Positions 6,264-50,280 of a stretch of DNA of 64,000 bases are shown here, piece after piece; the first letter of the stretch is position 1; each line of letters opens with the position of its first letter. A program made the translations under genes and the position numbers. The notes below the pieces were generated by a model. That model saw nothing but the letters and a program-made list of their open reading frames with translations, had not been told where the DNA came from and did not search any database. The DNA lies in NCBI RefSeq assembly GCF_000305775.1, contig NC_018866.1, positions 1,962,501-2,026,500 on the forward strand, given 5' to 3'. This stretch comes from Dehalobacter sp. DCA (lineage in GTDB: Bacteria > Bacillota > Desulfitobacteriia > Desulfitobacteriales > Syntrophobotulaceae).

Positions 6264-6264
6264 T

Positions 6265-8850
6265 TTACGTTAGCACCCCTCTGTAAAAATGTCCTCTGGT
6301 AAAGCCATCGGGATAAAGCCCCTCCAGGCTTTTCATCGCTTCTTCTGTTTCCTCTTTGCCTATGTTCTTGCCTCCAGCCGTTTCTTTCCAAAGCTGGTGA
6401 AAGACTGCAACGGCACGTTCAGCCTGGGGCAGGGATGCCCGAAGCAGTTCCAGCCGGATATTTCTGATGCCCATATCGGCTATTTTAGACAGTTCGGTTA
6501 CCAGATTCAAGGTTTTGGCATTGAAGACATGCATCCGGCACTCTTGATCCGTAGCCAGTGGGAAGTGATAGGCCATGCGGTCCTTCAGGTACAGGTCTCT
6601 GTTTTGACAGGCCTTTCCGCATTTGTTGGGGGCTCCGTCTTTTCCCTCCCCCAGCACAGCGCCGGGAAGACAGAATTCACTGACCATCATTTCCATATCG
6701 CCAAACACCAGCAACTCAATACCTTCGGATTTGCCCAGAACGGCAAGCTGTTCCTGACTTAATTCCATGGAAAGGGCTGCCTGCCTTGCGCCTGCCCTGT
6801 GAACCCATTCCAGCGCCGCTTCGTTAAAACAATGCACAAAATAATCCGTCTCCCAAGTCCACTCGGGATCAACGGTCTTCACCATTTCGATTTCCGCCAG
6901 ATTCCCGGCCATGATCACCGGCCTTGCCGGCCAGCCTGCCACCTCTGTCAGATCCTTCAGCACCTGCTCACACTGGATCTGATTCAAGATTCGCGGCAAT
7001 CTCCATAGTAGCGTTCTTCCCCGGCTTTGACACGTATCGAGCGCCTTCTGCAGCTCTGCCAGGGTAAGGGACGGTCTGGACCGCCAGTGTTCTCCGCCCA
7101 GGATGATTCTGTCCGCACCGGACTTCAGCAAGGGCGCAATCATGGAAGAATCCGTCACCGCGGCACTGAGCAAATGCTTGCCTGTTCCGGTTTTTCCCGA
7201 TACTGTCCGGCCGGTTTTGAGCTGCTGATTCCAAGCGTGGGTCCGCTCCTGATACGCATTCAAGGTCAGTGCCGGCTTGCTGTGAGACGGTTCCAAAAGC
7301 TTCTCCACCGCAGCGCGCCGCAATTCATTCAACGCACTAACCGGTATCATCAGATCCCCTTCCAGTGCTGTCGTTAATTCTCCCAGATAAAATGGGGTAT
7401 TCCCCAGACGCCCCAGCTGTTTTACCAGAACCTCCTGTGTCAGTGGCCGATTCTGTGCTTCCTGAGCCTCACACTGCGATTCCAGCGCAACGTGCTGCTG
7501 GTCGTCCCAGACGGTCAGGCGCAGTTTTTGACCAGCTTTTCCGGAAAGCTGCATTTTTAACGGCCGCTTGCGCATTTCCTTGCCTTCCTGGAAACTAAGC
7601 CGGGCCTGGGCAATCAACTGCTCATCGTGGGTTTTGAATACCCGGTCCCCAATATTCGCAGCGCCTTCAAATTCTATGGTGACCGTATCTCCGGGTGCAG
7701 CACTGTTAACCGTTTTGCCGCCAGGTACCCCTATTCTTCCGACGCTGATCCCTTCGCGGCCTCTTTTTGTCCAGATCTCCAGGCCGTCTCCGAGTCCCAG
7801 CTCGCGGTCCAGCTTCAGTGTCAGACGGTTGTTTTTTAGATCCGTAATTCGGCCCAGCATGGTGCCACGATTGTTTGGGCGGCTGAAACTCATCATCTCC
7901 GCTCCCTGGTAACCCTGAAAGTATCCGGTTGTAAAATCCCGGTTAAAAATCTGAGTCAGCTCATATAGATCCCGGGCTGTGATTTCCTGCCCCTTTTGTT
8001 CCTGTAAAAAGTCCAGGGCTTTACGGTAGACCCGGATGACCGTTGCCACATATTCGGGCCTTTTCATCCTGCCTTCTATCTTCAGTGAGCGCACACCGAT
8101 CCGCTGCAGCTCCCCGAGATTGTCCAACAATTTCAGATCACGCGGGCTTAGAAGGTGCTCCCCGGTCTTCCTTCCTTCCAGCAGATCCCTGCCTTTGCCG
8201 TCGACCAGACTGTAGGCCATCCTGCAAGGCTGCGCACATCTTCCACGGTTACCGCTCCGTCCCCCGATATAGCTCGACATCAGACACTGTCCGGAATAAC
8301 TGATGCATAGTGCGCCATGTCCAAAAACCTCGACATCCAACTCCGTCGCCTGAACAATTTTTTCTATTTCCGGCGCCGAAGTCTCCCTGGCTAGAACAAC
8401 CCTGGAAAAACCCATTTTTTCAAGTTGCTTCAGCCCGTAAATATTATTCTGGGTCATCTGCGTGCTGGCATGAAGTTTCATTTCCGGCAGAACTTTCCGG
8501 ATAAAATTCGCAACCCCGATGTCCTGAACAATCAATGCGTCTGCGCCAAGTGAATAAAGCTGATAGACATAGTCCGACAGCTCTGAGAATTCACTGTCAG
8601 CCACAAGAATATTTAATGTCACATAGACCTTAACGCCGCGTTCGTGCGCGTACGTCACCGCCTTAGACAATTCCTCCGAATCAAAATTTGAGGCCGAAGC
8701 TCTGGCATTAAACATTTTGCCTCCGAGATAGACGGCATCGGCTCCGTTTTCCACCGCAGCCTTCAATGCCTCGTAACTCCCGGCCGGTGCAAGAAGTTCC
8801 ATCTTTTTATTTGTATGCTGCCGCGGACTGCTGCCAAAATCTGAATGCAT
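6265..8850 (-). CDS. U32 family peptidase with C-terminal extension
   Basis: 861 residues. The N-terminal U32 domain begins MELLAPAGSYEALKAAV and contains the family signature region EVFGHGALCISYSGQC ending with the cysteine cluster GRCAQPC. The middle part (about 390-530) matches the collagenase-associated DUF3656 type by position and character. A second TIM-barrel-like region follows. Family members include RlhA/TrhP, which hydroxylate rRNA or tRNA, so an RNA-modifying role is more likely than proteolysis; this is inference. The ATG at 8850 has GGAG about 10 nt upstream. A second candidate start is the ATG 16 codons further in, where family similarity begins. Coupled to mutS2 downstream. 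Confidence 0.88.
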   Translation of the reverse strand: MHSDFGSSPRQHTNKKMELLAPAGSYEALKAAVENGADAVYLGGKMFNARASASNFDSEELSKAVTYAHERGVKVYVTLNILVADSEFSELSDYVYQLYSLGADALIVQDIGVANFIRKVLPEMKLHASTQMTQNNIYGLKQLEKMGFSRVVLARETSAPEIEKIVQATELDVEVFGHGALCISYSGQCLMSSYIGGRSGNRGRCAQPCRMAYSLVDGKGRDLLEGRKTGEHLLSPRDLKLLDNLGELQRIGVRSLKIEGRMKRPEYVATVIRVYRKALDFLQEQKGQEITARDLYELTQIFNRDFTTGYFQGYQGAEMMSFSRPNNRGTMLGRITDLKNNRLTLKLDRELGLGDGLEIWTKRGREGISVGRIGVPGGKTVNSAAPGDTVTIEFEGAANIGDRVFKTHDEQLIAQARLSFQEGKEMRKRPLKMQLSGKAGQKLRLTVWDDQQHVALESQCEAQEAQNRPLTQEVLVKQLGRLGNTPFYLGELTTALEGDLMIPVSALNELRRAAVEKLLEPSHSKPALTLNAYQERTHAWNQQLKTGRTVSGKTGTGKHLLSAAVTDSSMIAPLLKSGADRIILGGEHWRSRPSLTLAELQKALDTCQSRGRTLLWRLPRILNQIQCEQVLKDLTEVAGWPARPVIMAGNLAEIEMVKTVDPEWTWETDYFVHCFNEAALEWVHRAGARQAALSMELSQEQLAVLGKSEGIELLVFGDMEMMVSEFCLPGAVLGEGKDGAPNKCGKACQNRDLYLKDRMAYHFPLATDQECRMHVFNAKTLNLVTELSKIADMGIRNIRLELLRASLPQAERAVAVFHQLWKETAGGKNIGKEETEEAMKSLEGLYPDGFTRGHFYRGVLT

Positions 8851-11955: not shown

Positions 11956-12242
11956 GTCATCACGGTAGACGCGCCGGTTACCCGGCGCACCCCGCACAGT
12001 TCCCGGCGTGCGGAACTACCGCACCGGGCTTTCCCTGCACCATTCTGTGTCAGATCATTAGCGTTACTTTATGAATCTCCTTGTCAGACTAGGGGGTTCT
12101 TTCAAAATCATTTATTCGTCCTTTTCCAATCCGCACATGGATGCGCGATCTCAGCATGGTCTTTCGCACTAACATCCTGGGGATTACCTCAACACCCCAA
12201 CCACATTCATATTGGCAAAGTTGCGGTAAAGCCCTGTTAAAC
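11956..12242 (-). repeat. attC-like site split by an intron remnant
   Basis: Minus strand: R'' GTTTAAC, A, arm GGGCTTTACCGCAA, terminal segment ACTTTGCCAATATGAATG, complementary arm TTGAGGTAATCCC (one extrahelical base), spacer CAGGAT and GTTA. The remaining GAC of R' appears 211 bp later, after the intron-like segment. Joining the two gives GTTAGAC, a good R' box. Confidence 0.75.
11959..12169 (-). mobile_element. Shrunken group II intron remnant (5' end plus domains V-VI)
   Basis: On the minus strand the segment starts with GTGCG, the group II 5' consensus. It ends with a domain V-like hairpin at 11999-12030 (begins AGCCCGGTGCGG and closes CCGCACGCCGGG, including the AGC triad) and a domain VI-like hairpin with stem GCGCCGG/CCGGCGC, then CTACCGTGAT. 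No reverse transcriptase and no domains I-IV remain, so it cannot splice. Insertion inside an attC R' box fits the group IIC-attC intron class. The 3' boundary is inferred from restoring GTTAGAC and may be off by a few bases. Confidence 0.7.
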
Positions 12243-12307
12243 GACGTATCGTGCCCCGTGACTCAGACAGTGCCACGGACGGCGCTACCTTAAGCAACTA
12301 CCGCCTT

Positions 12308-12724
12308 TCACTCAATAAATGAAGTTTTACAAACTAAACAAATATGTTTATGTACACAGACAAAATTGCCACATTCTTTGCAACTCCATCTAATCTCCTC
12401 ATGCTGTAAAAATGAATCCAGATTATTTTGCTTAATGTGCTCAAGATTTTCAATCATGCTCATGTGATACTTACTTCGATACCGCTTATCCAACTGTTTT
12501 AGTCTTATGCAAGGGAATTTGTCGCATTCAAAGCAAAACCCGGATTTATTACTTTGAATTACAGAACAATTTTTGATTATGCAACTGGTGCTATTTTTTG
12601 TTTTATACCTTATATCGTCCTCGTTTCGGCATCCCTTGCAATGATTTTTTTCCCTTTGATTTGCCATACAAAGTCTGCAATTCATCCCGCAAGGAGCAAT
12701 CAACTCTTCTCTCATTTTGTTCAT
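12308..12724 (-). CDS. Cysteine-rich DUF3795 family protein (cassette gene)
   Basis: 138 residues. Sequence starts MNKMREELIAPCGMNC, the usual DUF3795 opening with CGMxCxxC, followed by CKGCR, CSVIQ, CFECDKFPC and two further CxxC pairs near the C-terminus (CKECGNFVC, CLVC), suggesting bound metal. The open frame extends upstream to 12832, but GAGGT 9 nt before the ATG at 12724 and the start of family similarity favour this start. Biochemical function unknown. Cassette orientation. Confidence 0.82.
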   Translation of the reverse strand: MNKMREELIAPCGMNCRLCMANQREKNHCKGCRNEDDIRYKTKNSTSCIIKNCSVIQSNKSGFCFECDKFPCIRLKQLDKRYRSKYHMSMIENLEHIKQNNLDSFLQHEEIRWSCKECGNFVCVHKHICLVCKTSFIE

Positions 12725-12802
12725 CTTATACAGTACCTCATCGCGTGATTTTACTGACGTACGAGATCTGATTACCACAAAGAAATACTTTAAGTCCATT
12801 TC

Positions 12803-12821
12803 ATCCGCGCCAGGACGGCGC
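12803..12821. repeat. Palindrome of the CCRTCC family
   Basis: CCGCGCCAGGACGGCGCGG: a GC stem around CCGTCCTGG read on the minus strand. It lies just after a half attC. Confidence 0.6.
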
Positions 12822-12841
12822 GGCCTTTGCACGATATGTCG

Positions 12842-12900
12842 TCGTAGAATGTTCCGCGTATTCCCGAAGTCTGGTTATTACATTCATATTCTCTAGAACA
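12842..12900 (-). repeat. Half attC-like site after the lipoprotein gene
   Basis: Minus strand: GAGAATATGAATGTAATAAC, arm TTCGGGAATACGC, spacer GGAAC and a decayed R' ATTCTAC. The terminal segment and arm match the site at 20.4 kb, but the first arm and R'' have been lost. Confidence 0.5.
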
Positions 12901-12921
12901 GCTTTCAAATGTCATTTGTTT

Positions 12922-13434
12922 CTATTGATATCCCCCTTGTGGTTCTGGTAACTTTTTATATTCTTCTTTACTTTCTATTGTAGAAACAATCATATTAATT
13001 AGGTCTCGCAGATTCTTGGCTTCAGATCCTTCCGATAAGTTACTATCTACCCAATTAATTTGATGCTCTTTCCGGTTATACGTTATAAATAACTCATAGG
13101 TTTGACATGGAGTAACCCATCGCTTAATGGTCGAATCGTTATCTGGTTTAAAATCTTCAGGGTAGTTATTAATACTAATCTTACGCATTTCGTTATAAAT
13201 CATTGTTAATTCATCGTTTGATAACTCTAAAGGTATGGTTGATGTTCCTGATAACACTAGGTCCTTTGTAAAGGTACCATTTTTTGTATTAAGCTCATTT
13301 TTAGCTCCGATTCCATACTTTAGAACAAAAGCAAAATCTTGAGGTTTTTCGGTTGGCATATGATTTGAGCTACAACCACTGAGTAACATAATAAGAATCA
13401 ATGCAAATGTTATCCTAAAATTATTCTTTAGCAA
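12922..13434 (-). CDS. Predicted lipoprotein (cassette gene)
   Basis: 170 residues. A signal peptide of lipoprotein type is clear: basic start, hydrophobic stretch FALILIMLLSGC with lipobox LSGC, Cys at about residue 21. The mature part is soluble and polar, with a segment of alternating strands (about 45-130) and no recognised domain. Expected to sit on the outer face of the membrane. It is a single-gene cassette between a full attC (13.5 kb) and a half-site (12.9 kb), and reads in cassette direction. Confidence 0.8.
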   Translation of the reverse strand: MLKNNFRITFALILIMLLSGCSSNHMPTEKPQDFAFVLKYGIGAKNELNTKNGTFTKDLVLSGTSTIPLELSNDELTMIYNEMRKISINNYPEDFKPDNDSTIKRWVTPCQTYELFITYNRKEHQINWVDSNLSEGSEAKNLRDLINMIVSTIESKEEYKKLPEPQGGYQ

Positions 13435-13466
13435 CTTTCCTTCTCCCCATAAATAATTGACTAAGC

Positions 13467-13540
13467 ATATAACGTTCAGCCATTCCCGATGTGTCTTATT
13501 TCATTCATGTATTCTAAGTTTCGGGAAAGGCGTGTTAAGT
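13467..13540 (-). repeat. attC-like site, 74 bp
   Basis: R'' ACTTAAC, A, arm CGCCTTTCCCGA, terminal segment ACTTAGAATACATGAATG, arm TCGGGAATGGC, spacer TGAAC, R' GTTATAT. The arms pair imperfectly, with an extrahelical base as in known attC sites. Confidence 0.78.
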
Positions 13541-13648
13541 ATGGGTGGCCCGTTTCTCCTCTTATTGTATATTATATGTTCCTAGTCGAATTATGTAATA
13601 GATTGCTAGCCGTTCTTTTTCAATAAAGGCAGTTAATTTAAGAGCCAA

Positions 13649-13978
13649 TCATGCTTTCCTATTACTTCTCTTAGAATCTATTATGTGATATAACGTTAAT
13701 ATTGGGTGCTTAAACAGCATCCTTGGCCCAGAATACCTCATAACTTTCTTTATTTCTACTCTCATTTCTAGTTTATAACAATGTATTTTACATCTTGCAC
13801 AGACTGGTTTGTTCTCACCAAACATGCATTGTTCTATTTTCTTGCTTGAATATTTATATAATCTCTCACAGTCTTCACACCTTCTATTTTGGGGGGTATG
13901 GGTTTTCTTGCAATAAATATTAATCATTTTCTCAACCGTTACCCGTTCTCTTCTTCGCCTTTTGCTATCTGTACTCAT
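13649..13978 (-). CDS. YgbA-like protein (nitrous oxide-stimulated promoter family, cassette gene)
   Basis: 109 residues, with the cysteine pattern of the YgbA_NO family: IYCKKTH, RRCEDCERLYKYS, QCMFGENKPVCARCKIHCYK and the conserved MRYSGPRMLFKHP. In enterobacteria ygbA responds to nitric oxide stress; that link is family knowledge, and nothing here shows regulation. The many Cys suggest metal binding. Stand-alone cassette gene. Confidence 0.8.
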   Translation of the reverse strand: MSTDSKRRRRERVTVEKMINIYCKKTHTPQNRRCEDCERLYKYSSKKIEQCMFGENKPVCARCKIHCYKLEMRVEIKKVMRYSGPRMLFKHPILTLYHIIDSKRSNRKA

Positions 13979-14076
13979 TTTTTCTGTCCTTATAATTAAT
14001 TTTATTTTAAAAAACTGAATATATCAGCTACTAATTAAAATATTACAATGTAAGATTACTTGCAAGGCGACCTTTC

Positions 14077-14152
14077 GCTTAATGTTTCGTGAATTGCCGA
14101 CGCATCCCGACTTCATGCCTCTTTACTAAGTGTTGGCATTTCGCTGTTATAT
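14077..14152 (-). repeat. attC-like site, 76 bp, R' slightly decayed
   Basis: R'' ATATAAC, A, arm GCGAAATGCCAAC, terminal segment ACTTAGTAAAGAGGCATG, arm GTCGGCAATTCAC, spacer GAAAC and ATTAAGC where GTTAAGC is expected. Confidence 0.7.
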
Positions 14153-14180
14153 GACGTACGGCAAATCTAAACATTCAAAT

Positions 14181-14900
14181 CTATTCTATCCTTGACATTA
14201 TCTTAAGCCATGTTTCTTTGGTTAAAAAACTCTCTTCAACTTGCTCTTCTAACTCTAAGAAGCGTTTATATGGAATGCTGAATGAAAGAATGTCTTTGTC
14301 GATATGATTTCGTGCGGAAGGATCCGTTAGTCCGATAATACACTTTGGATCCTCCTTCTCAGCTTGCTCTAGTGCATATAGTACAGACTGCTGACAGCCA
14401 GAACCAAAGTCTACTTTAACGTTGTCTTGAGTTGATTTATCGTAATTGGCGAACCACATCAGTGCTGAAAGTTGATCTGCATTGGCTAGAAATATAATAA
14501 TTTCTGGTGTTTCATCTTCAGTCAATTCCGATAACGGTTTAAAAATTATATACTTTGCGGGTACAACTTCAGGTAACCCAGTTGCGAATTTCACTGCTAA
14601 CTCCGGGTTCTTCTTATAAAATTCTCCTTCTCTACCACCAGGAACACCAGTTGATAAGAAATGTTCAATAAAACCTAATTGAAACCGATTGAAGCCAAGT
14701 CCAACTTTACCACCAGGACAATTCGTAGTCTTATCTTCAAATACCGCCACTCTTCCTTTAGCTGCAGCATTTAACATAGAAATGACACAACCCCGTTTCC
14801 CTTCTTGGAACTGCATTGCATCCTCGGGTTTAACATTTGAACGGAATACTGCAACTGGCTGAGTTTTTAACTTTATTGAATCAGCAATTTTACTTTTCAT
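14181..14900 (-). CDS. DUF169 family protein (cassette gene)
   Basis: A 239-residue cytoplasmic protein of the DUF169 family. Typical parts are the opening [14 protein letters not shown], the Cys-containing [25 protein letters not shown] and the late CQQSVLY. No transmembrane segment. The family is widespread in anaerobes and methanogens, with no established reaction. It lies between two attC sites in cassette direction and appears intact. Confidence 0.88.
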
Positions 14901-14943
14901 AATACCACTCCTAATTTCATTATACTCTGATTCTCAGCATGTC

Positions 14944-15018
14944 ATATAACGTCTCGCGAAGTTCCGCAGCGTCATACCGCTTTAATATATTCAAAGTTGC
15001 GGAACTTCGCTGTTAGCG
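14944..15018 (-). repeat. attC-like site, 75 bp, nearly perfect arms
   Basis: R'' CGCTAAC, A, arm GCGAAGTTCCGCA, 29-nt terminal segment, perfectly complementary arm TGCGGAACTTCGC, spacer GAGAC, R' GTTATAT. The arms are identical to those of the site at 28.7 kb, which lies on the other strand. Confidence 0.85.
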
Positions 15019-15243: not shown

Positions 15244-16904
15244 CTGAAGTTTCGCACCCCTCAAAACCCTTGTATCTCTAATTTAAAGGTATCCTAATGC
15301 CAGTGGTTCCTTCTGATTATTACCGATTAACTGGCATTTTTAAGGGCTATAAGCTGATTACTAAGAAAAGAATTCTCAAATAGTTCTTTCAAATGTTCAT
15401 ATTCACTGGAATTCCTAAATTCCAAAATGTCCACTAAACCAGACTTGGCGATGCTGGTGATCACCACTTGCAGCAAATCATCAAATAATTCCCAGAGCCG
15501 CTCCGCTACATTCTTCTCTATGAGTTCGTCCTTGATTTCCGCAAATAATCCTTCTAAGGATTCGTAGGCGTTTACTCGTCGAAAATAGGCTAGGAGTGTA
15601 TAGAGGAGATAGCAGGTCGTGATATGGGCAATCTGCGCATCGAAATCCCTCGATTGACAAGTCCCGAGCTTCAAATGCTGCTTGGCTTCCTTAAAAAAGA
15701 CTTCGATGGTCCAACGGATACTGTAAATCTCCAACATACTCAATAAACTAAGAGATATATCCGTCGAGAGGAACAGTCTAAATTTCTTTTGATAGGGAAA
15801 CCGGCAAAAATACAGTTTGATTTGTCCGATTCCTTCATAATCAACAAGGACTTCGAAATAACGGATATTCCGTTTCCTACAGCGTTTTTCGTTTCCCTCA
15901 CTTTTGAGGACCGATTTTAATTGGCTGGCATTAAGGGAAGTCTCTTTGTAGCGATACTTCCTCGTATCTTGCCGAACACCACAGACCAAATGCATCGATT
16001 TTTTGTCTAATCCTCGAATCGTTTGAATGAACTCGTAACTGCTGAACCAGCTGTCAACCAGGACATATTTAGCCTTAAACCCCTGTTTTACCGCCCGTTT
16101 TATCATATCCAGACCGTTCGAAATTTTGCTAACATGGCATTCTCTGATCCGTTTAGCCCCAGCAGATTTGGGGTCTCGTTGCTTTTTGAACCGTTCTTTA
16201 CGGTGCCTTGCCTTTTTTAAGGGCTTTTCCACTTGTAAAGTGAAGTCTATAGGCGTGAGGCTTTTACCATCGAAGAAACCAAGGGTTAAATTTTTAAAGC
16301 CTAATTTGCTACCTTTCTTCCCTGCAACATGGTCAAACACCTGGGTCATTTGTTCAATTCTTCGACCTGTCTTAGCAAGAGTTGTATCATCTAGAATGAA
16401 AGCGGACTTTTCATCCACTTCGTTCGTAGGATTAACCAATCGTTGAAACTGTTTGGATATACCGATCAGCAATGCTCTCCAAGGCATTTTTTCATTGTTC
16501 TTCAGTCGATATATGGAATCTTTCTTCATAGTAGTAACCTTTTGGAAATCGCTTTTATATAACGCGTGGACACTTTTCAGTAACATTAGGGGCAACATCA
16601 ACATTAGTGAGAGGATTTCCGCGGAACTGTAACCATCCTGTTTCAGAAAACCAACTTTGCGGCAAAGCGTTTTAAGCTTGAACGTCTTCATAACTTCACA
16701 TATAATATTGTTAATCGAATAGCCGTGATTTTGGAGTACGTTTTCAATTTCTTTGACAGGTTTCCGCATGATAACACCTCATTTTTGGTTGATTTGGAGT
16801 AGCATCTTATTATACCAAAAACCTAGTGTTCATGCGGATTTTTATCGTTTTTTCGTCTTATTCTAAGCCGAATTTTCGGCTGTTTTATGGGTGCGAAACT
16901 TCAG
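15244..16904 (-). mobile_element. IS4-family insertion sequence, copy 1
   Basis: 1661 bp, identical at the protein level to the copy at 26300-27960. Terminal inverted repeats are 16 bp, perfect (CTGAAGTTTCGCACCC). A 7-bp direct duplication TCATTAA flanks it, so it inserted by itself. Confidence 0.95.
15327..16769 (-). CDS. IS4-family transposase, copy 1
   Basis: A 480-residue DDE transposase. The first catalytic Asp lies in FILDDTTLAKTG, the second in YVLVDSWFSS, and the Glu in the IS4 signature YSIRWTIEVFFKEAK, which fits Y-(2)-R-(3)-E-(6)-K. The gene fills nearly the whole element and appears intact. The other copy encodes the same sequence, so transposition was recent or the copies have been homogenised. 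Confidence 0.95.
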   Translation of the reverse strand: MRKPVKEIENVLQNHGYSINNIICEVMKTFKLKTLCRKVGFLKQDGYSSAEILSLMLMLPLMLLKSVHALYKSDFQKVTTMKKDSIYRLKNNEKMPWRALLIGISKQFQRLVNPTNEVDEKSAFILDDTTLAKTGRRIEQMTQVFDHVAGKKGSKLGFKNLTLGFFDGKSLTPIDFTLQVEKPLKKARHRKERFKKQRDPKSAGAKRIRECHVSKISNGLDMIKRAVKQGFKAKYVLVDSWFSSYEFIQTIRGLDKKSMHLVCGVRQDTRKYRYKETSLNASQLKSVLKSEGNEKRCRKRNIRYFEVLVDYEGIGQIKLYFCRFPYQKKFRLFLSTDISLSLLSMLEIYSIRWTIEVFFKEAKQHLKLGTCQSRDFDAQIAHITTCYLLYTLLAYFRRVNAYESLEGLFAEIKDELIEKNVAERLWELFDDLLQVVITSIAKSGLVDILEFRNSSEYEHLKELFENSFLSNQLIALKNAS

Positions 16905-20370: not shown

Positions 20371-20390
20371 GTGCACCGTCCATGGTGCAC
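20371..20390. repeat. CCGTCCATGG-core palindrome
   Basis: GTGCACCGTCCATGGTGCAC lies between the YcxB-like stop codon and the attC site. Confidence 0.75.
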
Positions 20391-20415
20391 TCTGAATCTG
20401 GGGGCAGGATACTTC

Positions 20416-20492
20416 GTAGAACAGCGTATTCCCGAAATCCGAGAGAATATGGATGTAGTAACCAGACTTCGGGAATACGCGAGACGTTATAC
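20416..20492 (+). repeat. attC-like site, 77 bp
   Basis: R'' GTAGAAC, A, arm GCGTATTCCCGAA, terminal segment, perfectly complementary arm TTCGGGAATACGC, spacer GAGAC, R' GTTATAC. Confidence 0.87.
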
Positions 20493-20545
20493 GCCATTGC
20501 TAGGTCATTTTTTATATAAAGTCCTTGATATGGGATTACTGTTTT

Positions 20546-23500
20546 TTAACGAATAACTCTTGCAACTTTAGATAAAGGACCTTGACATGAAAAGCGAGTT
20601 ACACTTTCAATTCGAGTATTTTCATGTACGTTATTAACAAATCTCCTATGACAATAAAAAGTAGTTCTTGTATCAAATCGTTCAGTTCTACACAAATACC
20701 CCGCAGGTGTACTTGCGATGACATACCCGCTTTCTCTTAAATAGTGAATATTCATAATCCTTTCGACTCTCATAGTCTCATGTTTTTCTTTATGATTTAA
20801 TGTGGGGTTATTTCTTAACTCAATAAATATATCTGTGCATTGATCATCGTTATTTATATATAAGTAAGCTGCATAACAAAGTTTTATAAAAATATCTTCG
20901 GGAACAGTTTGGGTATATTTTGCATATTCAGACTTAATGGTCTCAAAGTCAATATTTAATTTATGCATTAGTTCAAATCTTAAACGATTTAATAAGATTT
21001 CATCTTCTTTTAATAGTACTCCTTCAGAACAAATTTTATAAGCATGATTGAATTCTTTTTCTGCCATTAGGATCCTTGAGAGAAGAAAACGAGCAGACAT
21101 GTTTCTTGGGTTTAATTCTAAAGCTCTATTAAAGTAACCTTTAGCTACCGGGTTATTTACTAGGATCTCTTGAAGACGCCCAGCTTCTACTAAAATAGCT
21201 GAATCATTGGGTTGTTCTCGAGTTGCCTCTTCCATAAGCTTTTGAATCTCTTCCAGCAACTGTTCACTTTCTCCTGAGCCAGGAGTAAACTTTTTATACC
21301 AGTTAATAAGATGACTGATTAAACTATGGTAATGATAAGGACTAGTTTTGTAATAAGAACGCGAACTTTTTCTTATAGCACCTAACAGTATATCTTTCCC
21401 TTTATCCCTTAAATATGATGATTTTGTAAAATCAATCTCGTTTAAAGATTCTTTTAAATAAATGGTTCCCTGAGTATTTTTAAATATTTGTGAGGTAGGA
21501 TTCATTTCAAGTGCACTATCTATAGTAGCTTTTGCATCATCAAATCTACCAATACCAGATAAAAACAATGCTTTTTGTTGAAGTAAAAATGAATCGCCCG
21601 GCAATTGTCCCGATAATAAATCGTAGCTTTGGACTCCAACATCATTACTCGAAAAAAAACTTGAAACAGTAGAGTGGTGATACAACTTTTTAACAAGTGA
21701 CTTTTCTAGCGGATTAGAAGGAATTGCAGCTTTTACAATTGATTCTAGAAATTCATATTTTTCTACGTCATTTTTGCAAAAAAGTCTTACGATAACACTT
21801 GCGATTACTGAATGTCTTGCACTAATTAAATAATCATCCTTATCTTTGGTTTCCTCGTAACTAATAATACCTTCAGTAAACTTAAAAAGTATTTCCTGAA
21901 CCTGAGATAAATCCACACCAATGATTCTTAATAGTAAAGATTGAGGTATTCTATACCTATATTGATTAACAATACAAATGTATTTATATGCTTGTTGTGC
22001 GAGGCTAGACTTTATTGAAAAATACTCATTTGCAATTATATCATCGAATTTCTTTCCAGTGGTTATTTCTCTTAAAGCAACTATTAGTTCCCTTTCAGAA
22101 TAGGATTTAAATATGTTAATTTGTTCTAGTTCATCGATCCCAGTAAGAGTTCCAAGGCAATTATTTATTTTTAACTTGTTTAAAATAGCAGGTATTTCAA
22201 AGTCACTAAGCTTACCCATTGGATATTCTTTATGCTTAGCTAAAATTGATTCTTGAGAAAGTAAATTCCAATCTGATGACCTACTTGCACCAATAATAAG
22301 AATTCTAGCACCATTATTTTTAAAGAATGATAATAGTTTATTTGTTTTTCCGATCCTATCAGAAATGTTATCAATTAAAATTACTAAGGGTATATTTAAT
22401 TCCTTGTGAAGGTCTAATAGTATTTTTGGATCTAAGTCAGAACGACTATTCGCAAATAGAACGGTTTCACCAACTTTATTAGACAATTCAATTGACAAAC
22501 GCTTTAATAGTGTAGATTTTCCATCTCCTGATCTTCCGGTAATTATCCAAAGGCCTAGTTGTGGACTTTTATACCAAGAGTCAAAATCTGTAATTAAGCC
22601 TTCAAGAATGTCTCGAGGAGCGTCGAGATTATTTTTAATATGTTTCCATTGAGGTTCTGCACCATCATAAAATTGAGCAGTTCCATTGATAAAAGCTTTT
22701 TTTAATTCCCAAAGAGGAAATTCATAATCTTTTGAAAGATTGTACTTATTTTCTTCGGTTAATGTTGTTATGTTATTAAAAATTTCTATTGGGATTATAT
22801 TCTTTGAATAAAACTCCTCCAGAGATTCTCTTTGTCCTTTTGTTTTTGCTATGAGATATTCAGCAAAGTCATCGGTACCTACCTTTAAAATAATTAAATC
22901 CTTTGCTTGCTAAATATCCTGCAAAAGAAGTCTTAATGTTAGGACTTACAAAAAAATACCTATTGGGTATAGTCGTAATATGGCAGTATTTTTCAATAGT
23001 TGCCCAAACTTCTTGGAAATTTGAGTCTTGCATACTATAACCTATAAAAATAATTGGGCGTTCCATTAAATCAATACTTAGTTTCTCAAATAATTTTAAA
23101 TGCGCTTCTCGTGAACTTGCGTATTCTTCTAGTGAAAAAACGAGTGGAATATCTTTCCTAGTAATACAACCGTGCAATTTATGTAAAGTTATTTCCGTGT
23201 TTCTATCTTCTGTTCCTTTATCATAAGGGGCAACAACTGTGAGCAAGTTTTGAGCTTTTTCCTGCTCAGATAAGTACGCATTTTCTATAGCTTGTTCAAT
23301 ATTAGTTGTATAGATATTATACCATTTAAACTTAGTTAATTTTTTCAACCCTTCTGATGATTCAACATCACATAGTAAGTCGTATAAAAATGAGTGTAAC
23401 TTAGCATTTCCAAAATTTTGTTGAATTGTACTACTCACTAATTGAAGGCTTTCACCATCGTATGATTCGTTAGGATAAAATTCTTTATATAATATTTCAG

Positions 23501-23630
23501 ATAATCTATTACCAATTGGAACTGTCTCATCATTTTTAAGGAAAGATGAAGCACTGGCACCAGCCCCTAGAAATAAAACACATTTTCCTGAAAGTACTGA
23601 TTCAATAAGGTATTCTTCTGGAGTTTTCAT
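20546..23630 (-). pseudogene. SIR2-STAND NTPase-TPR defence-type gene with one frameshift
   Basis: Read with one correction, this is a single gene of about 1030 codons. The SIR2-like N-terminus (1-250) has FLGAGAS, YTTNIEQAIENAY and LHKLHGCI with the likely catalytic Asn and His. A STAND-type NTPase follows, with Walker A GRSGDGKST at about 22.53 kb, Walker B LVILIDNI and sensor LIIGASRSSDW. The C-terminus has TPR-like helices (YFNRALELNPRNMSARFLL). This architecture matches antiphage NADases such as Avs5. The SIR2 frame stops at 22869 after KGRYR, while one base over it continues VGTDDFAEYL into the NTPase; one surplus G near 22885 explains it. Good Shine-Dalgarno GGGAGG. It lies antisense within its cassette. 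Confidence 0.85.
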
Positions 23631-23738
23631 TAAAATATCCTCCCTATTTATATTAGAAATAATTATGATATATAATAAACAATATAGTAAAATTATACCA
23701 TATATTTAAATTGCTTTGGTAATATCATCCGCAACAGC

Positions 23739-23814
23739 GTATAACACGGTATTACCGTAACTTTGTAAAGATGCATGTGGTTAGGACGCTACGGTAATAC
23801 CGGGCACGTTATAT
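23739..23814 (+). repeat. attC-like site, 76 bp
   Basis: R'' GTATAAC, A, arm CGGTATTACCGTA, terminal segment ACTTTGTAAAGATGCATG, perfectly complementary arm TACGGTAATACCG, spacer GGCAC, R' GTTATAT. Confidence 0.87.
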
Positions 23815-23831
23815 GAAAGATGGCGCATTAC

Positions 23832-23848
23832 CGCGACCTCGTGTCGCG
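23832..23848. repeat. Small GC palindrome after the attC site
   Basis: CGCGACCTCGTGTCGCG: stem of 7, loop of 3. It lacks the CCATCC core but occupies the same position relative to attC. Confidence 0.5.
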
Positions 23849-23872
23849 AAATATTGGATTGTCAACAGTAAA

Positions 23873-24706
23873 CTAGACAGATTTGTTAAGGTAAATGGTT
23901 TTATACTCCAGAGGACTAAGGTAGCCTAGTGTTGAATGAATTCGCTTTTCATTGAACCACTTAATATAAGACTTCAATTCATTCTCTAGGTGTTCCAGTG
24001 ATACAAAGCGTCGGTTTTTCACAAACTCTGTCTTAACTAGTTTGAAGGTAGCCTCGGATACGGCGTTATCATAAGGACAGCCCTTCATACTCAAAGAACG
24101 CTGAATATTAAAGGTTGAAATTACTTCATCAATTAGCTGGTTTTTAAACTCGCTGCCACGGTCTGTATGAAACATCCTAATATTATGTAGATTGGACTTC
24201 ACGCTAGCAAAAGCCCGATATACCAGGGCAGCGTCTTTCGCTTTGCCACAGCTCTGTCCAATTATCTCCCGATTAAATAAATCAACGAGAAGGCAGATAT
24301 AATGCCATTTGGTTCCTACTCGAACATATGTCAGGTCGCTAACAACGGTCTCCAATGGCACCGCTTTTTCAAATTCCCGATTCAATTCATTCTTGATTTC
24401 AGCTTCGTTGCATTTGGTTTTGAATGGCTTATATTGAGCTACTGTGTATGTTGAAACTAAGCCATTTTTCTTCATCAATCGACCGATTCGGCGACGAGAG
24501 ACTGTTAAATTCTTCTTTTGAAGCTCAATCTTAATCTTTCTGGTACCATAGACCCGTTGATTTGATTCAAAAATCTCGATAACGTGCTGCTCAACATCGT
24601 CTTCAACTTCCTGATAGGTTGATTTGTAGTAATAACTACTGCGATTCACTTGTAGGACTTTACACATTGCTGATACCGAGTATTTGTGGGCATTTTGCCT
24701 TATCAC
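23873..24706 (-). CDS. IS3-family transposase OrfB (integrase core)
   Basis: 277 residues. HTH_21-like start (YSVSAMCKVLQVNRSSYYYK), then the rve integrase core with catalytic Asp in VVSDLTYV, Asp in FHTDRGSEF and Glu in CPYDNAVSEATFKLVKTE, the DDE triad of IS3. It ends in the family motif YIKWFNEKRIHSTLGYLSP. OrfA stops 2 nt upstream of this frame's first ATG. IS3 elements normally make the fused OrfAB by a -1 frameshift; no site is assigned here. Confidence 0.95.
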   Translation of the reverse strand: MIRQNAHKYSVSAMCKVLQVNRSSYYYKSTYQEVEDDVEQHVIEIFESNQRVYGTRKIKIELQKKNLTVSRRRIGRLMKKNGLVSTYTVAQYKPFKTKCNEAEIKNELNREFEKAVPLETVVSDLTYVRVGTKWHYICLLVDLFNREIIGQSCGKAKDAALVYRAFASVKSNLHNIRMFHTDRGSEFKNQLIDEVISTFNIQRSLSMKGCPYDNAVSEATFKLVKTEFVKNRRFVSLEHLENELKSYIKWFNEKRIHSTLGYLSPLEYKTIYLNKSV

Positions 24707-24708
24707 GT

Positions 24709-24993
24709 CTACTTTCGTCCCATGATCAGCGCGGCTTGCTTTAAAATATCATTTTCCATCAACAAGCGCTGGTTTTCTTTGCGAAGTTTTATGAGTTCTT
24801 TCTGTTCATCACTAAGATTATCTTTTTCACGAAATGAACCTGTTTTCTCATGTTGTTTCGTCCATCTGTCAAAGGTTGAACCACCTATATCATATTCCTT
24901 CAGAATTTCGGCTCTCGGTTTGCCGTTCAGATATAACTGAACCATTTGATTCTTGAATTCATCGGTAAAAGATCTTCGTTCTCTTTTGGTCAT
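24709..24993 (-). CDS. IS3-family transposase OrfA
   Basis: A 94-residue helix-turn-helix protein that recognises the IS ends. The start KRERRSFTDEFKNQMVQLY and the GGSTFDRWTKQHE recognition region are typical, followed by a leucine-zipper-like stretch LIKLRKENQRLLMENDILKQAALIM that mediates dimerisation and joining to OrfB. Confidence 0.95.
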   Translation of the reverse strand: MTKRERRSFTDEFKNQMVQLYLNGKPRAEILKEYDIGGSTFDRWTKQHEKTGSFREKDNLSDEQKELIKLRKENQRLLMENDILKQAALIMGRK

Positions 24994-25084
24994 TGTCTTT
25001 TGCTCCTTTGATTATTACTTTTAATTTACAAGACCTTAAGAAAACTGTCCAGTTTAGTGTAGCCTATTCATATTGAGGATTATT

Positions 25085-25966
25085 ATGGATGAAAGAATAA
25101 TTAGTACGTTTTGTTTATGGTGTGACTTATTAGGTTATTCAACACCCTTTGTTGAGTCAGGGTGGAATTTAAACACAGAAGAATCATTGAGAAATCTTGA
25201 CAGAATAGTAAGCTTACAGTGGATGTTTACTAAAATATCATTTTATCCAATTGAGCGTATCTTAGTTCTAAATGATGGATTTGTAAAGACTATTGACGTA
25301 CTAAAAAATCTTACTCAACCACAACAATATTTATATTGGTTTGACAATGTTTTAGATATTTATAATTCACTCAACCGTGTGGATAAAAGTAGAAACTATC
25401 CGGGAGCACGTGCTGTGTTGACTCATGGATACAGATATGAATATATGCAAAGTAATATGACAGCAGCAGATTTAGTACAAACTTCATTAGAAAGAAAAAA
25501 AGAATTGGAAAAACAAGTTATGGTATACTCGCCTCGAGAGTTTCAGATGAATACTGCATTTTCGAAAGCTTTCATTATGGAGGGTGCTGGTTCAGAGGCT
25601 GGAATTGTTGGCTCTAATCTATATATTGATATTATATTTTTGAAAGAGTTAGAATTAGTATTAACAAGCAATAAAAATGCAAAAAATTTTCTTGTTGATG
25701 AAGGTGTTGAGCATTCTGAAACAGGATGTAGAAAAGATAGAATAAATGAACTAAATGTTGAGTTTAACGTTATTTCGTATGAAGAAGAAACCTTCTTCAT
25801 CTGGGAAGTAATAGAGTGTATTGAAGGACAAAGTGAAGTTTTATTTAAGTTATGGCTTGACAATAATTATGTAGTTTTCAACAACAAAGGTATAAATACC
25901 AGATTATTTAAAGCTGTTAAGTATAAAACATTTCTCGAAAAAGACTTGATTATTGAATTAAGCTAA
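25085..25966 (+). CDS. Uncharacterised protein, weakly nucleotide-cyclase-like
   Basis: 293 residues, no membrane segment. Segments such as CLWCDLLGYSTPF, ILVLNDGFVKTI, ARAVLTHGYRYEY and IVGSNLYIDII follow the order of motifs in uncharacterised proteins with a class III cyclase-like core (metal Asp, second Asp, R-x-x-x-T-x-G). I would not assign catalysis. The ATG at 25085 has GAGG 6-7 nt upstream; the frame opens at a TTG at 25073. The IS3 element ends only 15 bp before the start. Without that IS the gene would begin within about 50 bp of the attC R' box, as cassette genes usually do. Confidence 0.7.
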   Translation: MDERIISTFCLWCDLLGYSTPFVESGWNLNTEESLRNLDRIVSLQWMFTKISFYPIERILVLNDGFVKTIDVLKNLTQPQQYLYWFDNVLDIYNSLNRVDKSRNYPGARAVLTHGYRYEYMQSNMTAADLVQTSLERKKELEKQVMVYSPREFQMNTAFSKAFIMEGAGSEAGIVGSNLYIDIIFLKELELVLTSNKNAKNFLVDEGVEHSETGCRKDRINELNVEFNVISYEEETFFIWEVIECIEGQSEVLFKLWLDNNYVVFNNKGINTRLFKAVKYKTFLEKDLIIELS

Positions 25967-26299
25967 TTTTCAAGATGATAAGGGCCTACTTCCATGTCGG
26001 CTCCGGCTCCGTGGGGCGCCATCCATCACCGGATAAAATTCAGCTATTTTTTGGAGTGAGTTTATGTTAAATAAAGAGAAATTGTTCTTAAATAAGTTGT
26101 ACTGGAAAGGTGCAAATCTTTTAGAGCATAACTGCGATTATTATAGCCAACTTATTGACAAATACGGAAAAGTAAAAGCCATTATTTATAAAGATAATAA
26201 AGAGAAATACAAAGAATATGTTTTCCATGATTTTATTTATTACTGTTTTACGAAGTCGATAAGAAGTATGGTGGCGGTAAAAGAATTAATAAACAATAA

Positions 26300-27960
26300 C
26301 TGAAGTTTCGCACCCCTCAAAACCCTTGTATCTCTAATTTAAAGGTATCCTAATGCCAGTGGTTCCTTCTGATTATTACCGATTAACTGGCATTTTTAAG
26401 GGCTATAAGCTGATTACTAAGAAAAGAATTCTCAAATAGTTCTTTCAAATGTTCATATTCACTGGAATTCCTAAATTCCAAAATGTCCACTAAACCAGAC
26501 TTGGCGATGCTGGTGATCACCACTTGCAGCAAATCATCAAATAATTCCCAGAGCCGCTCCGCTACATTCTTCTCTATGAGTTCGTCCTTGATTTCCGCAA
26601 ATAATCCTTCTAAGGATTCGTAGGCGTTTACTCGTCGAAAATAGGCTAGGAGTGTATAGAGGAGATAGCAGGTCGTGATATGGGCAATCTGCGCATCGAA
26701 ATCCCTCGATTGACAAGTCCCGAGCTTCAAATGCTGCTTGGCTTCCTTAAAAAAGACTTCGATGGTCCAACGGATACTGTAAATCTCCAACATACTCAAT
26801 AAACTAAGAGATATATCCGTCGAGAGGAACAGTCTAAATTTCTTTTGATAGGGAAACCGGCAAAAATACAGTTTGATTTGTCCGATTCCTTCATAATCAA
26901 CAAGGACTTCGAAATAACGGATATTCCGTTTCCTACAGCGTTTTTCGTTTCCCTCACTTTTGAGGACCGATTTTAATTGGCTGGCATTAAGGGAAGTCTC
27001 TTTGTAGCGATACTTCCTCGTATCTTGCCGAACACCACAGACCAAATGCATCGATTTTTTGTCTAATCCTCGAATCGTTTGAATGAACTCGTAACTGCTG
27101 AACCAGCTGTCAACCAGGACATATTTAGCCTTAAACCCCTGTTTTACCGCCCGTTTTATCATATCCAGACCGTTCGAAATTTTGCTAACATGGCATTCTC
27201 TGATCCGTTTAGCCCCAGCAGATTTGGGGTCTCGTTGCTTTTTGAACCGTTCTTTACGGTGCCTTGCCTTTTTTAAGGGCTTTTCCACTTGTAAAGTGAA
27301 GTCTATAGGCGTGAGGCTTTTACCATCGAAGAAACCAAGGGTTAAATTTTTAAAGCCTAATTTGCTACCTTTCTTCCCTGCAACATGGTCAAACACCTGG
27401 GTCATTTGTTCAATTCTTCGACCTGTCTTAGCAAGAGTTGTATCATCTAGAATGAAAGCGGACTTTTCATCCACTTCGTTCGTAGGATTAACCAATCGTT
27501 GAAACTGTTTGGATATACCGATCAGCAATGCTCTCCAAGGCATTTTTTCATTGTTCTTCAGTCGATATATGGAATCTTTCTTCATAGTAGTAACCTTTTG
27601 GAAATCGCTTTTATATAACGCGTGGACACTTTTCAGTAACATTAGGGGCAACATCAACATTAGTGAGAGGATTTCCGCGGAACTGTAACCATCCTGTTTC
27701 AGAAAACCAACTTTGCGGCAAAGCGTTTTAAGCTTGAACGTCTTCATAACTTCACATATAATATTGTTAATCGAATAGCCGTGATTTTGGAGTACGTTTT
27801 CAATTTCTTTGACAGGTTTCCGCATGATAACACCTCATTTTTGGTTGATTTGGAGTAGCATCTTATTATACCAAAAACCTAGTGTTCATGCGGATTTTTA
27901 TCGTTTTTTCGTCTTATTCTAAGCCGAATTTTCGGCTGTTTTATGGGTGCGAAACTTCAG
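26300..27960 (-). mobile_element. IS4-family insertion sequence, copy 2
   Basis: Same 1661-bp element and 16-bp ends as copy 1, flanked by its own 6-bp duplication CAATAA. Separate duplications show two independent insertions. Confidence 0.95.
26383..27825 (-). CDS. IS4-family transposase, copy 2
   Basis: 480 residues, identical in amino-acid sequence to the copy at 15327-16769, with the same DDE residues and the Y-(2)-R-(3)-E-(6)-K signature. It is antisense to the interrupted DUF5677-like gene. Confidence 0.95.
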   Translation of the reverse strand: MRKPVKEIENVLQNHGYSINNIICEVMKTFKLKTLCRKVGFLKQDGYSSAEILSLMLMLPLMLLKSVHALYKSDFQKVTTMKKDSIYRLKNNEKMPWRALLIGISKQFQRLVNPTNEVDEKSAFILDDTTLAKTGRRIEQMTQVFDHVAGKKGSKLGFKNLTLGFFDGKSLTPIDFTLQVEKPLKKARHRKERFKKQRDPKSAGAKRIRECHVSKISNGLDMIKRAVKQGFKAKYVLVDSWFSSYEFIQTIRGLDKKSMHLVCGVRQDTRKYRYKETSLNASQLKSVLKSEGNEKRCRKRNIRYFEVLVDYEGIGQIKLYFCRFPYQKKFRLFLSTDISLSLLSMLEIYSIRWTIEVFFKEAKQHLKLGTCQSRDFDAQIAHITTCYLLYTLLAYFRRVNAYESLEGLFAEIKDELIEKNVAERLWELFDDLLQVVITSIAKSGLVDILEFRNSSEYEHLKELFENSFLSNQLIALKNAS

Positions 27961-28655
27961 CAATAACTTTCGAGAAGACACTCTTATAATTCTTAGAACT
28001 GTTTATGAGAATTATATCAATATGTCCTATATACTTAATAATCCTCATGAAATACGCGAACTTGTATGGCAAAAAATTGGATTGAAAGCTGGAATATATG
28101 AATTCAAAAAAACAAATAATAACAAACTTAACTATAAAAAGGTAATACTAAAGGCTAATAATAAGGAATATGACCATAATACATCTATACAAAAAATGGT
28201 AGAACATGGCGTACATCCAATTGACGCAATAATACACCCTATTATTTATCCATATCTTTCGGAGCACACACATCCAAATATGATTGGGTCAGGAAATTAT
28301 AGAACTAAAGACAATAAACATTATGAAGTCGGGCGTGAAATATTACATATTGAAGTAGTATATTTTGCAGTATATATTAGTTTTTTAATAGGTGGAGAGA
28401 TATATTTATATCATACCGCCAACTTTGATGAGGTTGATACGCTTACCGGTGAAGAATCACGCAAGATGGTTGAGGAGATTGTGGAAATAAGAGAATTAGT
28501 AAATGAAATAAGTGAGGTCATTGTTTTTGATTTAAATACTGAGTTAAAGGAGTTAATTGAGAAAAGATTAGCTTCCATAGATATTAGCTAATTAGAATAC
28601 TACTTTTTATTGAAGACATTTAAACTGTATGTCTTTGCAATATACACATTTAAGG

Positions 28656-28675
28656 GGTTGCCCTCCATGGCAACC
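28656..28675. repeat. CCCTCCATGG-core palindrome
   Basis: GGTTGCCCTCCATGGCAACC lies between the DUF5677-like gene and the attC site. Its stem is the same as that of the palindrome at 9992. Confidence 0.75.
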
Positions 28676-28700
28676 GCTGAGTATGGGGGTGCTATCCATC

Positions 28701-28775
28701 ACATAACAGCGAAGTTCCGCAACTTAGAAAAGATGAATTTGGTAAGGCGCTGCGGAACTTCGCGAAACGTTATAT
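28701..28775 (+). repeat. attC-like site, 75 bp
   Basis: R'' ACATAAC, A, arm GCGAAGTTCCGCA, terminal segment ACTTAGAAAAGATGAATT, perfect complementary arm TGCGGAACTTCGC, spacer GAAAC, R' GTTATAT. A GC hairpin follows at 28785-28806. Confidence 0.87.
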
Positions 28776-49998: not shown

Positions 49999-50280
49999 CT
50001 AAAAAGCTCCCGTCCTTCCTATGGGACGAGAGCGATAGAAACCCGTGGTTCCACCCAAATTCAAAAATATGACCGCCTACTATACCGGCAGCTAATTTTC
50101 CTTGGCATCCTTAACGCGGATAAACGTCCAGCCTACGCAAATCATGTTCGGCGAGGAACTCGGAGGCGGTCTTTTCCCAAATATCGCAAAAATGCTCACA
50201 GCCCAGGGCATTTCTCTCTAAATGCGAACGATTAGGATACTGTCCTCTTCATCGTGCCTTCATTATTCCTTATATATAGT
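49999..50280 (-). promoter_or_regulatory. T-box leader of thrS
   Basis: Minus strand antiterminator GGGTGGAACCACGGGT (50041-50056) followed by the terminator stem GCTCTCGTCCC/GGACGGGAGC and T-rich run (50001-50034). A possible promoter TTGACA-15-TATAAT lies at 50286-50312, overlapping the end of ytxC. Confidence 0.9.

Follow-up and report, generated by a model that had tools for sequence, protein, structure and literature searches.

A frame-broken SIR2-STAND gene, likely of antiphage type, inverted within an attC cassette of a Desulfitobacteriales-type bacterium

Introduction

Defense cassettes are established in other integrons (reviewed in PMC12409362). The locus described here raises the question of whether a large SIR2-STAND gene, lying in reverse orientation between two attC-type sites of Dehalobacter sp. 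DCA, is a captured defense sensor, and what kind of array has taken it up. We analyzed the window, i.e., the whole stretch of 64,000 nucleotides from 1,962,501 to 2,026,500, within a genome that is a single contig of 3,069,953 bp, together with other genomes of the order and with homologous loci from many phyla. We consider it likely that the gene is a captured antiphage-type NADase sensor, inverted within an attC cassette, and that an intact copy would work as proposed below. The array platform is the larger surprise, more so than the SIR2-STAND gene itself.

Results and Discussion

Table 1 Positions of the cassette features, of neighboring attC sites, and of array recombinases in related genomes
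Feature	Position	Strand	Basis or remark
attC-type site, 5' side of cassette (R'' GTAGAAC ... R' GTTATAC)	20416..20492	+	82.7 bits, reversed 21.3; hairpin z -5.8
Cassette, 3,322 bp, G^TT to G^TT	20487..23808	+	Site boundaries
attC-type site, 3' side of cassette	23739..23814	+	86.1 bits, reversed 16.7; hairpin z -3.9
SIR2-nSTAND5-TPR-CSD gene	20546..23630	-	Frame-broken; joined, 1,027 aa
SIR2_2 (NADase-type) ORF, 253 aa	22869..23630	-	Pfam 5.5e-17
+1 frame break interval	22869..22912	-	Frame translations and alignment with intact homologues
nSTAND_NTPase5 domain	22250..22675	-	Pfam 4.7e-26
Walker A GRSGDGKST	22511-22537	-	Within nSTAND_NTPase5
Helical TPR array	20765..21712	-	Pfam TPR matches; AlphaFold2 helices, pLDDT ~90
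C-terminal cold-shock/OB domain, five strands	20549..20746	-	PF00313 in family; Foldseek CspA
Shine-Dalgarno GGGAGG	23639..23644	-	Direct reading; good
Possible -10 TATAAT (perfect), gene-owned promoter	23692..23697	-	Direct reading; no convincing -35
Next attC of the same array	28701..28775	+	88.3 bits
Neighboring array, five attC (12167, 12844 [degenerate], 13467, 14077, 14944)	12167..15018	-	attC model
I2-less recombinases	G003:C1:3325711-3326802; G011:C88:49586-50677; G012:C3:7956-9026; G042:C1:694932-696008; others		Co-directional

An integron-type cassette with one inverted gene

The gene is bounded by two attC sites of the same orientation and makes up an integron-type cassette of one gene (Table 1); the crossover at the 5' site is expected after G20486. 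The original prediction had placed a minus-strand gene between two plus-strand attC sites, and this holds, with scores that fall to ~20 bits when the sites are reversed. Both sites form hairpins on the single-stranded bottom strand. The underlying covariance model rests on 11 palindromic sites of the window genome, both flanking sites among them, and it also detects nontraining sites in this genome and in ~30 others. Pairing in the 13-bp L arms reaches 97%, 9 of the 13 pairs are changed on both sides, and sliding the partner by one column abolishes the signal. The outer R boxes are constant at AAC/GTT and variable beyond, as expected if partners were swapped by recombination. When the window was simulated five times with a first-order Markov model, a scan with the attC consensus gave 0, 4, 0, 0, and 0 matches. 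Group IIC-attC introns habitually insert next to attC, and group IIC-type introns directly follow two attC R' boxes on the 3' side, supporting the attC identity. Chance palindromes were rejected on account of the covariation, the orientation, and the group II introns at the sites.

The window genome has ~20 attC-type sites in three clusters plus a singleton. In the clusters at 930 to 941 kb and 1,711 to 1,719 kb, genes follow the attC direction; the SIR2-STAND gene is therefore antisense to its own cassette, as first proposed. Its cassette is also unusually long, as had been noted: among 147 attC-to-attC intervals from eight genomes (median, 882 bp), this interval of 3,323 bp ranks fifth, and the two longest contain IS elements. 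Long, inverted cassettes are rare, yet not unique. The longest ORF is antisense in 14 of the 139 intervals that hold one, and inverted cassette genes of 291 to 404 aa are present in other arrays of the order.

The flanking attC sites could instead be incidental, if a chromosomal or transposon-borne gene had come to lie between them through IS-driven rearrangement and had not been captured as one cassette. IS elements are indeed dense nearby (15327-16769, 23873-24993, and 26383-27825), both small attC-flanking hairpins that most other cassettes of the genome have are absent from this one, and its homologues do not reside in cassettes of the window attC type. However, there is no IS between the two sites, which are complete, share an orientation, and lie 3.3 kb apart, as for other long cassettes; the inverted genes in other arrays of the order also speak for capture. 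We regard such a rearrangement as unlikely and retain capture as a single cassette.

A single frame break in a gene of 1,027 codons

The ORF list and Pfam assign one large gene to the cassette, spread over two open frames. Downstream of the SIR2_2 ORF, the second frame (20546-22873, minus strand; 775 codons) encodes nSTAND_NTPase5 (3e-26) and TPR matches. The two frames are open together solely across 22869-22912 (~14 codons), and the sole break in the gene is a +1 shift of one base, most likely at TTTTAAA at ~22886. Because the first ATG, GTG, or TTG of the downstream frame is codon 22498, past the Walker A motif, we conclude that this is one gene with a one-base break and reject two separate genes. 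The joined protein is collinear end to end with unbroken single-gene proteins of ~1,030 to 1,050 aa.

Since the gene is interrupted after its SIR2 domain, the deposited copy probably no longer functions, unless the shift reflects a sequencing error. The cassette could thus be a pseudogene, a defense fossil left behind in an array with an equally defunct integrase. The single +1 shift deprives the STAND-TPR-CSD frame of a start ahead of Walker A, the recombinase remnant of the genome is broken, and the catalytic motif TTNIE deviates from TTNYD. On the other hand, the gene is otherwise open over its 1,027 codons and the Walker A motif and the catalytic N and H are intact, so that any decay would be very recent, and the shift may be a one-base assembly error. 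We give a fossil cassette an even chance; it is compatible with our preferred explanation, as a later state of a captured cassette. Far less credible is programmed +1 frameshifting, which would yield two products, a short SIR2 protein and a full-length sensor. The shift at TTTTAAA and the ~14 codons over which both frames are open would suit it, but the homologous frames that we collected are uninterrupted in all cases but one, an RF2-type stop-slip site is absent, and -1 programmed signals are incompatible with a +1 shift.

The original prediction also held that the inverted gene carries its own expression signals. The Shine-Dalgarno sequence bears this out, whereas the promoter is weaker: a good -35 is missing next to the TATAAT, and promoter-like matches in the region (14, versus 15.3 in shuffles) are not above chance. 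Expression from the gene's own Shine-Dalgarno sequence and TATAAT is plausible, with a promoter signal at chance level.

Domain plan and predicted fold

Pfam and the joined translation support the proposed order of SIR2, STAND, and TPR with the Walker A motif GRSGDGKST. SIR2_2 (PF13289) matches at 62.6 bits, against a cutoff of 24.5, with the GAGAS, TTN (N110), and HG (H153) motifs kept and TTNYD changed to TTNIE. Pfam finds both SIR2_2 and nSTAND_NTPase5 in every one of the 39 family members. Residues G22, G24, N110, G154, G370, and K371 are invariant among them, and H153 is kept in 35; D112 is replaced by E in the window protein (E in 2 of 39 members), and Y111 is replaced by I (1 of 39). 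N110 and the Walker A lysine each correspond to an essential residue of PaAvs5 (PMC12931631), and so does D112. Of the Avs5 catalytic motifs, TTNxD and HG/NG, the window protein thus keeps N110 and H153 but has E at the D position.

The original prediction missed the C-terminal cold-shock/OB domain, as well as the likeness to SAMD9 and the I2-less platform described below. PF00313 (cold shock) is matched in 14 of the 39 family members. Folded alone, this domain forms a five-stranded barrel, for which the best Foldseek match is CspA (2l15; E, 6e-4; TM, 0.67/0.78).

AlphaFold2 on the 39-member family alignment gave a mean pLDDT of 85.6; in its input, the break was bridged by a four-letter code word, and five residues at the joint were altered. 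A structural comparison of the frame-corrected protein, as had been suggested, points to antiviral proteins: near full length, Foldseek matches EfAvs5 (1.3e-22) and human SAMD9 (9e-20), and VIA gives Z values of 21.5 and 21.0, respectively, with ~700 residues aligned in each case. The rmsd of 20 Å to Avs5 and 10 Å to SAMD9 indicates that the domains agree better than their relative placement. Single-domain matches to further SIR2 and TPR families are also present in the VIA list, which was not used for excluding families.

Relation to Avs5, SAMD9, and other NADase systems

Avs5 (AVAST type 5; EfAvs5, 9jap; PaAvs5) shares with the window protein the SIR2_2 effector, the STAND NTPase, the C-terminal helical repeats, and the GAG/TTN/HG and Walker A motifs, and EfAvs5 is the best Foldseek match (705 residues aligned). 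In contrast, the window protein falls in the nSTAND_NTPase5 class (91.8 bits) and not in nSTAND3 (PF20720; 17.2 bits, below the cutoff of 27.2), it carries an extra C-terminal CSD/OB domain at a length of ~1,030 aa, and it reaches 27.1 bits with the Avs5 equivalog model NF041814 of NCBIfam, whose cutoff is 1000. Judged by these profile scores, it is Avs5-like in plan and not an Avs5 family member. Thus, the earlier assignment as Avs5-like stands for the fold, which is near that of EfAvs5, but not for membership.

The window gene is a member of a distinct family, SIR2_2-nSTAND_NTPase5-TPR-CSD, that shares its domain order with the SAMD9 core. This core comprises SIR2-like, STAND P-loop, TPR, and cold-shock-like OB domains and has bacterial members (Mekhedov 2017, PMC5445408). 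Pfam, AlphaFold2, VIA, and Foldseek together find the same order in the window protein, and residues 391 to 1309 of SAMD9, which with SAMD9L is a human antiviral factor, align over 688 residues. Unlike SAMD9, the window protein has no SAM or AlbA_2 domain, and identity is 13%. The Walker A motif is GGT/S in SAMD9 and a canonical GDGKST here, with K371 in all 39 members. AlbA_2 precedes SIR2 in the SAMD9 family and has been lost in some members (PMC5445408); Pfam gives no AlbA_2 match ahead of SIR2 in the window protein, which begins at SIR2. Because AlbA_2 is absent and the Walker lysine, lost in SAMD9, is retained, we do not assign the window protein to the SAMD9 family; as modeled, it may work like that family. 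The structural likeness of Avs5 and SAMD9 has already been published (PMC12931631). What the locus adds is a four-domain Avs5 relative that has the domain order of the SAMD9 core and is carried by a mobile cassette.

The NADases Thoeris ThsA, DSR2, KomC, and SIR2-HerA share the SIR2 fold (Z, 18 to 25 over ~250 residues) but have other sensor and switch parts.

Homologues and origin of the gene

Full-length single-gene relatives at 20 to 24% identity are spread over many phyla (Planctomycetota, Bacteroidota, Pseudomonadota, Chloroflexota, and others), on chromosomes and sometimes on plasmids, outside cassettes of the window attC type. Unbroken homologues of 1,034 to 1,051 aa (21 to 24% identity) are found on plasmids of Acinetobacter, Vibrio, Psychrobacter, Klebsiella, and Methylobacterium. 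Across 86 homologue loci, no attC of the window type was scored by the lineage-specific model, which other kinds of attC could escape. The SIR2_2-nSTAND_NTPase5 family is therefore not a cassette specialist. Homologues that consistently lie outside cassettes had been named as evidence against the original prediction; this outcome is borne out in part, and it leaves the cassette status of the window copy unaffected.

Closer to the window genome, the gene is isolated. No full relative was found in 60 near genomes, and a sample of the phylum (398 genomes) gave just two SIR2-domain matches beyond the window genome. PF25199 matches in 74 genomes of the order are mostly generic P-loops, with four genomes above the cutoff, including the window genome. 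Scans for close relatives in genome contigs, viral contigs, and a phage collection found none; the relatives were found with an alignment query. The G+C content is 31% in the cassette versus 42% in the window. Together with the lack of a relative in the 60 near genomes, this low G+C content suggests that the gene was acquired laterally.

An I2-less recombinase beside arrays across the order

Of 41 genomes examined from the order, 30 contain sites detected by the attC model, with as many as 36, 59, and 63 in three genomes (G003, G013, and G032). A tyrosine recombinase, 360 to 367 aa when intact, adjoins the arrays. In seven genomes (G001, G003, G004, G011, G012, G015, and G032), an intact or partial copy shares contig and strand with the array and lies ~0.6 to 4 kb before the first site, and a long-type recombinase before an array was also found in four further genomes (G042, G046, G053, and G054) in which it was sought afterwards as a test. 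Several draft genomes have the recombinase at a contig end, where adjacency cannot be judged. A second, shorter type is divergent to the array (G015 C53, G038 C23, and G451 C223).

None of 25 genomes has a match to TIGR02249 (IntI) above the cutoff. When aligned with IntI1 (a partial copy that covers the I2 region), the long-type recombinases of seven relatives lack the I2-helix insertion; they have an extra N-terminal region of ~85 aa. According to the literature, cassette capture requires I2, which is confined to integron integrases (PMC7790495). The arrays resemble classical integrons in their RYYYAAC/GTTRRRY boxes, in their single-strand hairpin sites of ~76 nt, in having usually one gene per site, and in the group IIC introns at attC. 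They differ in that the adjoining recombinase, co-directional with the array, lacks the element regarded as the hallmark of integron integrases (PMC7790495) and carries the N-terminal extra region.

The I2-less recombinases may move attC hairpins in another way, an unseen canonical IntI may act in trans, or the association may be historical. Uniform arrays and repeated adjacency lead us to favor the first option. The order-wide arrays with their I2-less recombinase make the I2 requirement for hairpin attC recombination, a standing question, directly testable. Tentatively, the attC arrays of the order, with up to 63 sites per genome, might represent a distinct integron class, served by I2-less tyrosine recombinases and stocking large antiphage-type SIR2/STAND cassettes among others, even though I2 and single-strand attC recombination are held to go together exclusively, in integron integrases; we would put its chance at somewhat less than even. 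In the literature searched, integrons of Dehalobacter, Desulfitobacterium, or Desulfosporosinus are not described. The order-wide cassette arrays fall in Bacillota, a phylum with one complete integron reported before (PMC9024848).

In the window genome, no functional integrase was found beside an array. Its recombinase is a pseudogene, a remnant at 1720279-1720733 (minus strand) plus an N-terminal piece, beside the 1,711- to 1,719-kb array; residues 25 to 207 are unmatched (a large deletion), and there are two stops and one frameshift. With this recombinase broken, the cassettes of the window genome are probably frozen unless aided in trans.

Defense cargo and proposed mechanism

The original prediction tied the array to phage defense. 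One further cassette of the genome is certain to be a defense cassette, a complete two-gene SIR2-HerA system (L015:11667-14737, minus strand; G000:C1:936.7-939.7 kb; PADLOC, 373 and 513 bits), which is sense oriented between the attC sites at L015:11239-11314 and 14847-14923. However, most cassettes across the order hold other genes, namely, acetyltransferases (the commonest family), methyltransferases, toxin-antitoxin-like genes, and genes of unknown function. Among 125 cassette proteins of the order, a handful match defense models at 1e-5, among the 25 families listed. The link between array and phage defense is real but modest, defense being one of several cargos.

This mixed cargo would also suit a STAND signaling protein with another cellular role, as would the fact that the defense role of family members is argued by analogy. 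Yet the whole-protein fold matches are antiviral proteins (Avs5 and SAMD9), and plasmid members have restriction, Abi, toxin-antitoxin, and recombinase genes in their neighborhood. We find a nondefense role quite improbable.

In weighing the antiphage reading, we counted the second SIR2 defense cassette for it and the frame break, the TTNIE motif, the recombinase remnant, the absent hairpins, and the chance-level promoter against it. What we see directly is the boundaries and orientation of the cassette, the domain content, the predicted fold, and the conservation of the catalytic N, the catalytic H, and the lysine of Walker A. On our preferred explanation, a Desulfitobacteriales-type bacterium would have horizontally acquired a NADase sensor, with a SIR2 effector, a STAND switch, and a TPR plus cold-shock/OB sensor end, and captured it, in inverted orientation, as a cassette in a chromosomal integron-like array, where the gene would rely on a translation start of its own and perhaps also on its own promoter. 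By analogy with the characterized relatives Avs5, DSR2, and ThsA, from which we infer the trigger, the oligomerization, and the loss of NAD+, the TPR/CSD end of an intact copy would recognize a protein or nucleic acid product of the phage, STAND modules with bound ATP would then assemble, and the SIR2 domains would hydrolyze NAD+, stopping the infected cell. By the same analogy, the window gene would act in phage defense. Defense cassettes of Vibrio chromosomal and mobile integrons (PMC12409362) are likewise attC-bounded with a single defense gene, but those are small and streamlined, whereas this one is an inverted STAND gene of 1,027 codons in a Bacillota-type array and far exceeds in size the streamlined defense cassettes described so far.

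Other features of the arrays

The opposed attC arrays of the window, 12167-15018 (minus strand) and 20416-28775 (plus strand), are ~5 kb apart. The same 480-aa transposase occurs twice in the window (15327-16769 and 26383-27825), and a third copy splits a cassette of the L015 array (5963-7405). Identical group II introns (RF02005; RT, 448 aa) abut two attC R' boxes (L015:9926-10001 and L016:13421-13495), and further group II introns are present in both the L015 and the L016 arrays. Most attC sites in L015 and L016 are flanked on both sides by short hairpins whose loop carries a conserved RTCC, and such hairpins also occur in the window at 20371-20400 and 28655-28680. Flanks such as GCACGATACGTC / GACATATCGTGC lengthen the attC palindrome past the R boxes. 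A cassette gene at L016:9000-10205 (minus strand) encodes Schlafen AlbA_2, the domain that precedes SIR2 in SAMD9. A rifampin ADP-ribosyltransferase gene (L015:4692-5126, minus strand; Arr-ms, 165 bits) lies in the array region; an Arr-ms-type gene is also known from mobile resistance integrons. The window further contains a T-box leader (RF00230) at 50019-50261 on the minus strand, with 94.8 bits.
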